The position numbers were made by a program, and so were the translations under genes. From assembly GCA_015662175.1 (NCBI GenBank), contig DQUR01000262.1:1-5173 (forward strand): 5,173 bases of DNA, written 5' to 3'. Numbering within the stretch: position 1 is the stretch's first letter; the number at the start of each line of letters is the position of its first letter. The notes under the pieces were generated by a model that was not told the DNA's origin, did not search any database, and saw nothing but the letters and a program-made list of their open reading frames with translations. The DNA comes from Thermococcus paralvinellae (GTDB lineage Archaea > Methanobacteriota_B > Thermococci > Thermococcales > Thermococcaceae). Below, piece by piece: positions 94-2,748 of the stretch.

Positions 94-144
94 AACCACC
101 ACCTTCTTTTTTAAGAGGGAATATTCAGAAGACAAGTTAAAAAG
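94..144 (-). promoter_or_regulatory. Promoter and RBS of the amidohydrolase gene
   Basis: Read on the minus strand, a TATA-like CTTTTTAAC lies at 144-136. A start site about 26 nt downstream (near 114) would give a leader of about 20 nt, which contains the ribosome binding site AAGGTGGT (105-98) just before the ATG. This gives the gene its own promoter, independent of the cassette upstream. BRE match is weak; positions are by eye. Confidence 0.5.
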
Positions 145-173
145 ATGTCGGGAAAGAGAGAAAGCCGTTCCCC

Positions 174-558
174 TCATTCCCAAGTTTCGTATGTATCGTC
201 AATATCGATATTAAACGTATCTTGAACGTCTCTCCAGCATATATGCCACATCCGAGATACTCTACCACAAAACCGGTTTAATTGTGATGCTCTTTGGAAG
301 TTTTCCTTTTAGCTCAACCTCATAGTGTTATCTTCCATTGTAACGTTGAATCGTTTAGTTCAGTATGGCTACAAATGGGTGAGAACACTGACATCATCAG
401 TCCATGAAAGTGTCGTTTGAGGATATTACTTTCTGTGTGCCGTTTTCTATAATGATTTTCTAGGCCAAGGAGCCGTTAATGTAATTTTCTCTAATTATTT
501 TGCCCAATTCCATGAAAATCACGTGGCTCTCAAAAGACTTAACGAATAGCCATCTCAT
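174..558 (-). pseudogene. Decayed third gene of the bacteriocin-like cassette
   Basis: The stretch looks empty in single frames, but minus-strand reading gives pieces of one protein. From ATG 558..556 comes MRWLFVKSFESHVIF followed by an ELGKIIRENYINGSLA segment, then an in-frame TAG (462-460), then KIIIENGTQKVISSNDTFM and a double TGA at 399-394. Further pieces appear in shifted frames: YEVELKGKLPKSITIKPV (324-271), VEYLGCGIYAGETFKI (265-218) and FNIDIDDTYETWE-stop (215-174). The middle (about 325-395) is readable in two frames and is ambiguous. At least one nonsense change and two or three frameshifts are needed, so this is decay rather than one sequencing error. The ATG overlaps the stop of the 118-aa gene as ATGA, the classic sign of translational coupling. 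The intact product would be about 125 aa. Several N-x-S/T sequons (NGS, NGT, NDT) hint at an exported domain. I do not recognise the family. Confidence 0.7.
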
Positions 559-911
559 TTTTCTTCACCAACTTGATCTCGACTTCTAACCATGAGCCTT
601 CTGATACCTATCAAATATGCAAAAACAATGAAAAGCATCCAGAGATAAATGGAACTACGATCATAAGGACGTATAGATTGAATAATTCTTATACCCACGT
701 ATCCATCTACAATAATTGATAAAGTATATTCAGCTATTGACTTAATTTTGTTATTCCTTAAATAATAAGAAATGATCCCTGATATTGTGACATATAAAAC
801 CAATAGTGTTAAAATTTCAGTAATAGACAAAAAATGCTTCCATACCAAACCAATCACTAAGATGAAATGTAAAAAAACAAGAGATAGGACAACATATCTA
901 TTTCTTTCCAA
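555..911 (-). CDS. Small four-helix membrane protein, candidate immunity/export partner of the upstream precursor
   Basis: A 118-aa protein starting at TTG (911..909); the only later Met in frame is at residue 92, so the TTG is the sensible start. A G-rich GGGGGTTGAG lies a few bases upstream, in the 21-nt gap after the precursor gene, and serves as ribosome binding site. Hydrophobic segments at about residues 6-24, 30-51, 60-80 (weaker) and 87-107 predict four membrane helices, with short charged ends (MERNR; a basic and acidic tail RSRDQVGEEK). Positive loops at LRNNKIK (51-57) and IRRLMVRSR (103-111) would both face the cytoplasm if the N-terminus is inside. No catalytic motif or known family was recognised. 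Its place directly behind a secreted Cys-rich precursor, in the same operon, suggests immunity, processing or export, but this is inference from position only. The stop overlaps the start of the decayed gene. Confidence 0.8.
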   Translation of the reverse strand: MERNRYVVLSLVFLHFILVIGLVWKHFLSITEILTLLVLYVTISGIISYYLRNNKIKSIAEYTLSIIVDGYVGIRIIQSIRPYDRSSIYLWMLFIVFAYLIGIRRLMVRSRDQVGEEK

Positions 912-932
912 TTTCGCTCAACCCCCAATATA

Positions 933-1757
933 CTATTCAATTATAACCAAACCCAGATTTGCTAATCTTCTACAAATAGTTTCTGCTTTCTCCCTACAAA
1001 CTTTGTCTATGGTTTCTGAATACTTGTCCTCAAAGTACCAACAAATAATAGCACATATTGAAGGACCTACTGGCCACAATGGGGCAAATACACAAAAACC
1101 ACATGTCCAGAAGTCACCTAATACCTTTTGACAGATTTTATTAACAGTCCACTTACAGACTTCCATAAATTTATCAATTGGAACAACAATTTTTGACTGA
1201 GCTATAATGGAGCCATATTTTTCTATGTTTTTCTGACCCAATAGAATCGTCAAAGAACCAACAACACGTATTTTGCCATCTAATGTTTCCTTCACATACA
1301 CTCCATGTATTTCCTGAGTACCTGTTTCGACAGCGAGTACTTTATATATCCCCGTGGAGTTTCTTAATACTAATAAAAGACCTCTAAACTCTCCATTTTC
1401 CATGTACACCCTAAGTGGAACAGACATCTGTTCAATGATTTTGTTGTCCATTCTTATAAACCTAATATACGCCTTTTTAAACTCTGGGCGAATCACCATA
1501 ATGCCCAATCTTGTTTTCATATCCGATATATCTTCTGATGATATTAAATGCATAGTGACAAAGTAGGCAGCTGGTCCTTTAAGTTCCTGCACTTGAATAT
1601 CTCTGGAAAGAGTCATGTTTCCAGAACGGCATGGACATGCTGGGATTTGTTGAACAGTTGGTGTTTGTTCAGGAACATCCTCTGCACTTGCTAAAGCTGG
1701 GCTAACCACCAAGCCCAGCATTAACCCCAACAGCAAGAGGCTCAAAAGCCTTTTCAT
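933..1757 (-). CDS. Secreted precursor with C-terminal halocin C8-like Cys-rich domain (candidate archaeocin)
   Basis: A 274-aa protein with a Sec-type signal peptide: basic MKR, a Leu-rich core (residues 4-20) and an ALASA-ED cleavage site near residue 25. There is no twin-Arg. A short linker follows with a CPC pair (C41, C43). Residues about 50-188 form a beta-rich Cys-free domain with two sequons (NMT 47, NST 133). The last about 85 residues are different: eight cysteines (201, 209, 219, 222, 235, 239, 254, 262) around a hydrophobic core at 217-242 (WTCGFCVFAPLWPVG...), then a charged helix EDKYSETIDKVCREKAETIC. Recalled halocin C8 has the same plan: Cys-rich, a hydrophobic Gly/Pro centre, then a DEYSGCGDAVAKEAC-like end. 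Its precursor (about 283 aa) also carries a long N-terminal part, reported to act as immunity protein, ahead of a 76-aa peptide. Length and order match; identity is low, so activity is inferred. Start: AAGGTGGT just before ATG and a clear TATA box. First gene of a three-gene operon. Confidence 0.75.
   Translation of the reverse strand: MKRLLSLLLLGLMLGLVVSPALASAEDVPEQTPTVQQIPACPCRSGNMTLSRDIQVQELKGPAAYFVTMHLISSEDISDMKTRLGIMVIRPEFKKAYIRFIRMDNKIIEQMSVPLRVYMENGEFRGLLLVLRNSTGIYKVLAVETGTQEIHGVYVKETLDGKIRVVGSLTILLGQKNIEKYGSIIAQSKIVVPIDKFMEVCKWTVNKICQKVLGDFWTCGFCVFAPLWPVGPSICAIICWYFEDKYSETIDKVCREKAETICRRLANLGLVIIE
936..1193 (-). other. Putative mature bacteriocin domain within the precursor (residues about 189-274)
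   Basis: This part codes for the Cys-rich C-terminus that would be released if the precursor is processed like halocin C8. Cys spacing is 8, 10, 3, 13, 4, 15, 8. In halocin C8 as I recall it, the first C-to-C gap of 8, a gap of 14 across the hydrophobic centre and a late gap of 8 are similar, while others differ and two cysteines are absent here. The upstream boundary is a guess placed at SKIVVPIDK; no protease site is evident. Confidence 0.5.
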
Positions 1758-1760
1758 GGA

Positions 1761-1806
1761 ACCACCTTCAAAATTAATGAAAACAAACTCATATTTAAAT
1801 TTTACG
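1761..1806 (-). promoter_or_regulatory. BRE/TATA promoter and RBS of the bacteriocin-like operon
   Basis: On the minus strand the sequence reads GTAAAATTTAAATAT: a BRE-like GTAAAA at about 1806-1800 next to TATA TTTAAATAT at 1799-1791. A start about 26 nt downstream of the box centre would fall near 1770, giving a leader of roughly 12 nt. The ribosome binding site AAGGTGGT is at 1768-1761, three bases before the ATG. This is the best-formed promoter in the window and implies the cassette is (or was recently) expressed. Confidence 0.7.
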
Positions 1807-1929: not shown

Positions 1930-2703
1930 TCAAACGAACATGCTCTTTAGCACGTCTGCACAGCCACAATTTCTCTCCTCCGGTATGCACGGAATACCCT
2001 TCCTCAGGATTTCCTGGACTTTGTAGTTGTTCTCTTTCATGACTTTGAGAACCTCCTGGGCATCCACGGGCTTGTCGGCCCAGACGTCGTAGTCGGTAAC
2101 GGTTGCAACGTTCACGTAGCACATTCCGAGTTCTCTCGCCAGAACCACTTCAGGAACGAGGGTCATGCCGATTATGTGAGCGTACTGCCTGAACATGAAG
2201 CTCTCGGCCCTCGTTGAAAACCTCGGACCCTCTATACAGACGTAGGTTCCCTTTTCGTGAACATCGAAGTTCAGTTCTTTAGCCGTCTCGTAAAATATTT
2301 TCCCCATCTCCGGGCAGAAGGGGTCAGCCATGCTGACGTGGGCAACCCTTGGTCCATTGTAGAAGGTGTATTCCCTCTTTTTCGTGAAGTCAATGAACTG
2401 GTCAGTAATTACAATGTCCCCGGGTTTATACTCTTCTCTAAGGGAGCCAACGGCCGTTACACCAATAATTCTCTCAACGCCAAGTTCGTGAAGAGCCCAG
2501 ATGTTTGCCCCATATGGCACTTCATGCGGGGGAAACTCATGGGCTTTACCGTGTCGTGGAATGAAAGCCACCTCAACGCCTTCAACTTCCCCTATTTCAA
2601 TTGGTGCGGATGGTCTTCCATAAGGTGTGTGAACCTTTATCGTTTCTTTTGGCTCAAAGACACCGTAAACACCGGAACCACCGATAATCCCAATCCTTGG
2701 CAT
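1930..2703 (-). CDS. mtnP: S-methyl-5'-thioadenosine phosphorylase
   Basis: Phosphorolysis of 5'-methylthioadenosine (from polyamine synthesis) to adenine and methylthioribose-1-phosphate, a step of methionine/adenine salvage in the cytoplasm. Archaeal enzymes of this group often also accept other purine nucleosides. The 257-aa protein has the family's phosphate loop ([11 protein letters not shown], residues 4-14), PRHG plus HEFPPHEV (49-62), a TAVGSL segment (83-88), [11 protein letters not shown] (157-167) and TDYDVW (203-208), whose two Asp recognise the 6-amino group of adenine. Cysteines 130, 195, 246 and 248, including a C-terminal CGC, fit the disulfide/CXC pattern known for hyperthermophile members. 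Start: an in-frame ATG exists at 2727, but AGGGTGAT (2715-2708) sits four bases before ATG 2703, the TATA box places transcription start near 2712, and the family begins at MPRIG. A hairpin/T-tract terminator follows. Confidence 0.96.
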
Positions 2704-2707
2704 GAAC

Positions 2708-2748
2708 ATCACCCTGTTAATCTTCAACTTAGGTTTATTTAAGCTTTA
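2708..2748 (-). promoter_or_regulatory. Promoter and RBS of mtnP
   Basis: Minus strand GTTAAAGCTTAAATAAA: BRE-like TTAAAGC (about 2748-2742) followed by TATA CTTAAATAA (2742-2734). Expected transcription start is near 2712, giving a leader of under 15 nt that carries AGGGTGAT (2715-2708). This decides the ATG at 2703 against the upstream in-frame ATG at 2727, which would lie before the transcript begins. Confidence 0.65.

Follow-up and report, generated by a model that had tools for sequence, protein, structure and literature searches.

The stretch of DNA considered here, referred to as the window, comprises 5,173 nucleotides (nt) of Thermococcus paralvinellae (contig DQUR01000262.1) and is part of a 1.41-Mb genome of 287 contigs that is 75% complete. 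It harbors a gene for a candidate archaeocin precursor, P0001, which is followed by a gene for a small membrane protein and preceded by the gene encoding S-methyl-5'-thioadenosine phosphorylase (MTAP), a conserved neighbor that marks this chromosomal site (Table 1).

Table 1. Position of the candidate archaeocin genes and of associated features in the window (aa, amino acids; AF2, AlphaFold2).
Feature	Position	Strand	Basis or remark
Archaeocin-precursor candidate P0001, 274 aa	933..1757	minus	ATG 1757-1755, stop 935-933, stop codon included
Signal peptide-like segment, residues 1-25	1683..1757	minus	sequence read by eye
CPCRSGN, residues 41-47 (window's form of the conserved CPCCSGN motif)	1617..1637	minus	alignment A1
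N-terminal/middle domain, residues 46-188	1194..1622	minus	AF2 model and segment identities
Cys-rich C-terminal domain, residues 190-274, 8 Cys, variable "warhead" type A	936..1190	minus	comparison and AF2
Small membrane protein, 118 aa, TTG start, candidate cognate immunity protein	555..911	minus	21 nt after the precursor stop
"lip" remnant (conserved lipoprotein-like gene, broken)	271..540	minus	tblastn 49.6% identity, 111 columns, in-frame stops, E 6e-23
MTAP	1930..2727	minus	NF006334 456.5 bits, cut-off 382; conserved neighbor marking the site
Shine-Dalgarno-like AGGTGG	1762..1767	minus	before the precursor ATG, read from sequence
Archaeal TATA-box-like TTTAAATA	1792..1799	minus	precedes the precursor, read from sequence

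An open reading frame (ORF) at the position of P0001 had been proposed in an earlier note on this DNA; it is borne out, but on the minus strand, the plus-strand reading of the same interval containing 15 stops. The longest stop-to-stop run within positions 2-1930, 291 codons, exceeds that of all 500 first-order Markov sequences (mean 90, maximum 200). The precursor ORF can be regarded as coding because its frame is open in two close relatives and the whole-gene ratio of nonsynonymous to synonymous substitution rates (dN/dS) amounts to 0.31, 0.23 and 0.17 in three pairs; the C-terminus alone gives 0.57, 0.23 and 0, values that rest on few changes. The N-terminus MKRLLSLLLLGLMLGLVVSPALASA looks by eye like a signal peptide of the Sec type, and no twin arginine is seen by eye in MKRLLSLLLL, the start of the window precursor. 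Cysteines are located at positions 41, 43, 201, 209, 219, 222, 235, 239, 254 and 262, a distribution that includes the previously described C-terminal cluster of eight and Cys-free middle (residues 44-200) as well as a conserved pair, 41/43, that the earlier note had omitted. In alignment A1, C41, P42, C43, G46 and N47 are invariant in all 12 rows; position 44 is an arginine in the window only, the other 11 rows reading CPCCSGN (10 of 11) or CPCCLGN (P0011).

Residues 46-188 are predicted by AF2 to form two helices and about eight β-strands, with 10-residue block means of 73-91 for residues 61-170, and this domain is conserved at its start and diverges towards the C-terminus. The C-terminal domain is predicted to be helical (predicted local distance difference test score of 69.3), and saposins head the list when its model is compared with known structures. 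This faintly suggests that a released peptide could adopt a saposin-like helical fold, of which nested disulfides are characteristic.

A protein search of 94 genomes of the family gave 13 with a match at E 1e-3, including the window's own genome and weak ones. The better matches, all with open frames, join the same N-terminal part to differing Cys-rich C-termini; three relatives in named records stem from Thermococcus metagenome-assembled genomes, two of them at 89-91% identity. One relative, P0004 (220 aa), combines nearly the window's N-terminus with a shorter, different Cys-rich C-terminus. A search with alignment A1 listed 40 of 115 genomes of the phylum; in most rows the match spans just about 40 positions of the signal peptide, and such rows were not accepted as relatives.

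MTAP itself has a match in 92 of the 94 genomes, in a few merely as a paralogue of about 52% identity. The survey of the MTAP site comprised 80 stretches downstream of this gene, several of which end at contig ends (not included: G004, G011, G012, G049, G078, G082, G083 and another G077 copy). Eleven of these contain the N-terminal part of the precursor as an ORF (L028, L030, L038, L047, L057, L072, L079, L082, L083, L089 and L094), whereby L083 is cut by the contig end and the precursor of L094 lies about 8 kb further on. All ten uncut precursors are followed by a membrane ORF and a conserved lipoprotein-like gene, while the latter occurs without a precursor as an ORF only in L046 and in broken form in L048. 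Between representatives of the different types, identity reaches 88-97% for MTAP, 43-79% for the first 67 residues of the precursor and 54-77% for the lipoprotein-like protein, but 21-50% for the middle, 20-42% for the C-terminus and 16-26% for the membrane protein, with shuffled means of about 20% for these last three. C-termini that are more than about 30% identical represent related pairs, namely the window type and the L006 type as well as certain halocin-like C-termini. Hence, a hypervariable cassette is held between conserved ends: MTAP and the N-terminal part of the precursor are conserved, while the C-terminus and the next membrane gene change together.

In L094, the membrane protein and the lipoprotein-like domain are fused in a single ORF (9366-10184 of the reverse-complemented stretch), which links the lipoprotein-like domain to the candidate immunity function. 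To the eye this lipoprotein is LolA/LppX-like; three of its relatives gave no Pfam profile above cut-off. The gene is intact (open ORF) in L002 and L003; in the window it is broken while the precursor and the membrane gene stay open. L079 contains its type of membrane gene a second time in divergent form (2546-2905 of the reverse-complemented stretch; E 1e-13), and this copy is possibly an extra immunity gene.

Halocin-like domains are also found on another precursor of about 315-370 aa at other sites. Searched with one of its members, this second family has matches in 29 of the 94 Thermococcaceae genomes, with up to six per genome and very diverse Cys-rich C-termini. Its members (L014-L019, L138-L167, L171-L185) share an N-terminal part with a SSVTFRRAVVAWYDD-like sequence, and as a rule a membrane protein is encoded next to them downstream. 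L016 contains a complete precursor with its membrane gene and, behind these, a displaced partial precursor (116-1007, minus strand) with a different C-terminus and a small membrane ORF of its own.

The pairing of C-terminus and membrane protein was assessed across both scaffolds with 57 precursor units, of which two with truncated C-termini were removed to leave 55 (44 of type 2 and 11 of type 1). Identical proteins, frames cut by the end of a stretch and ORFs under 140 aa were excluded, and some units have a broken N-terminal part; the downstream membrane ORF was picked by a hydrophobicity rule, except for L079 and L150, which were set by hand. Each of the Cys-rich C-termini measures 71-132 residues and contains 6-20 Cys; single-linkage clustering divides the membrane proteins into 19 clusters. 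Upon comparison of all C-termini and all membrane proteins with phmmer (E below 1e-4), both partners were similar in 109 of 1,485 pairs, the C-terminus alone in 62, the membrane protein alone in none and neither in 1,314. After shuffling, which ignores genome relatedness, both partners were similar in 12.9 pairs on average and in at most 29, as compared to the 109 observed. The strongest pair across scaffolds is L016 with L020/L025 (C-terminus E 1.7e-16/1.2e-17, membrane protein E 4.4e-8/4.6e-8); when the whole precursors of L016 and L025 (P0010) are compared by BLASTP, the C-termini alone align and no similarity is detectable between the N-terminal parts. Other C-terminus matches across scaffolds mostly lack a membrane-protein match. 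Likewise, the window-type and L006-type C-termini are related, yet their membrane proteins differ.

Immunity genes are known to persist after loss of the weapon. Window-type membrane genes were found in 5 of the 94 genomes, in all five beside an intact or residual type-A precursor. An intact type-A precursor lies just upstream in three of them; in G015, all that is left of a type-A precursor is its final 19-20 residues (E 8e-5) in front of an open membrane ORF, and the site in G029 retains a broken N-terminal part (E 6e-9). Related membrane ORFs without a precursor occur in L050 and, weakly, in L092. A weak "remnant" in L077 was dropped, since it lies on the opposite strand inside another gene.

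The observed co-variation would likewise be expected if the locus encoded a secreted signaling peptide and its cognate membrane sensor, that is, a pheromone or quorum pair without any toxin, and orphan membrane genes could then be listen-only receptors. Nevertheless, such a pair is unlikely in view of the many clusters over which the membrane proteins are spread, the lack of any Pfam family above cut-off in the six membrane proteins scanned, and a homologous allele that is like halocin C8, a peptide antibiotic and founder of its family (PMC11509114). Even less credible is an ordinary secreted Cys-rich protein with a housekeeping or stress role whose variability reflects neutral drift. This would fit the absence of profile matches for the window protein from Pfam and NCBIfam (searched at E up to 1) and from PHROGs and PADLOC (at E up to 0.1), but not its patchy presence, the C-termini at or near shuffled identity beside a highly conserved MTAP, the exchange between scaffolds, or the orphan partner genes.

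The earlier note had viewed the product as a halocin C8-type precursor. For the system as a whole this is supported: the allele L011, which shares its N-terminal part and chromosomal site with P0001, ends in a halocin C8-like domain (NCBIfam TIGR04449, E 1.9e-10, 41.6 bits, cut-off 24), and the locus resembles a toxin/immunity pair. L010 and L008 score below this cut-off (20.1 and 19.7 bits), and L025, the same gene as L010, reaches 24.1 bits with frame neighbors included. For P0001 itself the assignment is not supported. Judged by profile, the window protein is not a member of the halocin C8 family, while its sister allele is. No TIGR04449 match was found in G000 at E up to 1, and the NCBIfam scan found none in the close relatives of the window protein, nor in L006 or L009. 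Mature halocin C8 contains ten cysteines, as compared to eight in residues 190-274 of P0001.

Taken together, the precursor gene and the membrane gene of the window probably form a polymorphic archaeocin system that consists of a Cys-rich peptide and a membrane immunity protein. An archaeocin with its immunity protein is the best explanation because an exchangeable secreted Cys-rich domain has a co-varying membrane partner that is able to outlive it. In this view, the precursor would be exported by Sec and cleaved near residue 190 by some protease, and disulfides would be formed outside the cell; while the peptide is being exported, the conserved middle domain likely chaperones or masks it. 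The disulfide-bonded antimicrobial peptide whose release is predicted may then insert into the membranes of related strains, while the cognate membrane protein would neutralize it in the producer's own membrane.

Several observations weigh against this proposal. The C-terminus of P0001 gives no match with the halocin C8 profile TIGR04449 at E up to 1 (24-bit cut-off), and a profile-profile comparison of 7 window-type and L006-type rows with 11 halocin-like rows reached a probability of just 7.8. When 6 rows were compared with 13 thermococcal halocin-like rows, the probability rose to 40.8 (score 25.6, 61 columns, several cysteines in register), a score attained by 0 of 100 full and 0 of 100 Cys-fixed column shuffles, which also destroy the helical pattern. 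Yet the six control clusters, made up of other Cys-rich C-termini, all exceed 25.6 (26.5 to 36.1); c2, c4, c5 and i1 match over 12-26 columns at the scaffold tail before the C-terminus, and the matches of c1 and i3 extend over 67 and 41 columns, respectively. Given these probabilities and the higher-scoring controls, homology of the window C-terminus to halocin C8 is not claimed, although common descent of the two is possible. The likeness of the endings that had been noted before does recur, in that hhalign also aligns EDKYSETIDKVCREKAETIC with the halocin-like end, without homology being claimed from it. The G029 remnants are slight: a 14-residue L011-like tail (E 0.039, weak) precedes an open 74-aa membrane ORF sharing 63% identity with the partner of L011, and the open window-type membrane ORF lies behind a type-A piece of 14 residues (E 0.012, weak). 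Finally, as regards retention of the partner, dN/dS values of 0.28-0.67 indicate only moderate constraint.

Comparison with known systems further outlines the proposed archaeocin. The halocin C8 precursor ProC8 is exported via the twin-arginine translocation pathway and provides immunity through HalI, a part of the same protein (PMC11509114). Features that the window system shares with the halocin C8-like family (TIGR04449, NF040679) are the length of the exported precursor, about 270-280 aa, and a C-terminal Cys-rich peptide of some 76-85 residues; moreover, the family domain is found in a sister allele from the same site. In contrast, the window precursor lacks a twin-arginine signal, and immunity appears as a separate gene. 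Because this co-varying membrane gene follows, an immunity part at the N-terminus is not needed. The conserved N-terminal part with an exchangeable C-terminus at one site, the cognate partner directly downstream that changes along with it, the orphan partners (G029, G015) and the displaced C-terminal cassette with its own partner in L016 are reminiscent of polymorphic toxin systems. Unlike in these, the warhead is a small Cys-rich domain instead of a nuclease or other enzyme, and contact-dependent delivery machinery is not seen within the window. A compact helical peptide with the tentatively predicted saposin-like arrangement would recall enterocin AS-48, aureocin A53 and lacticin Q, but the window peptide is disulfide-rich, has a near-neutral net charge and is part of a large precursor, no sequence match to these bacteriocins being shown.

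VARTIG modules, which occur in the same order, Thermococcales, follow the same logic of a hypervariable C-terminus and variable membrane genes (PMC8416519). By analogy, P0001 could be a surface protein for self/non-self recognition or adhesion, with the membrane gene encoding its anchor or partner. This is very unlikely, as immunoglobulin (Ig) domains are absent from P0001 and eight relatives scanned with Pfam, the precursors are short and their C-termini small and Cys-rich, and some alleles end in halocin-like domains.

The remaining window neighbors encode a PAC2-family protein, a DUF473 protein and NucS according to Pfam and NCBIfam scans. These scans, which covered six ORFs of the window and not the rest of the genome, named no dedicated delivery or protease module. 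AGGTGG and TTTAAATA are presumably the Shine-Dalgarno sequence and TATA box of the precursor gene. Near the MTAP site of L046, L050 and L061, whose genomes lack an intact precursor, a protein of 153-172 aa is encoded that by eye resembles a secreted thermonuclease. Judged by titles and the beginnings of abstracts, literature searches on halocin C8, archaeocins or bacteriocins of Thermococcales, polymorphic toxins and archaeal saposins gave nothing that describes this locus. A survey of antimicrobial peptides and polymorphic toxins in archaea, published in mBio in 2019, reportedly enlarged the halocin C8 family and may include thermococcal members.

On a broader scale, it is conceivable, if still tentative, that Thermococcaceae engage in peptide warfare with disulfide-armored saposin-like peptides, of which halocin C8-like ones are one branch, swapped together with their membrane immunity genes among unrelated secreted scaffolds. 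Such warfare would be the equivalent of polymorphic toxins in hyperthermophiles, with the role of the warhead taken by membrane-active peptides. If the proposed system is real, the Thermococcales would gain a defined peptide weapon along with the matching immunity genes, and the swapping of toxin/immunity modules would reach the small disulfide-rich peptides of hyperthermophiles. It may also offer heat-stable antimicrobial scaffolds and many ready peptide/immunity pairs for work on specificity.
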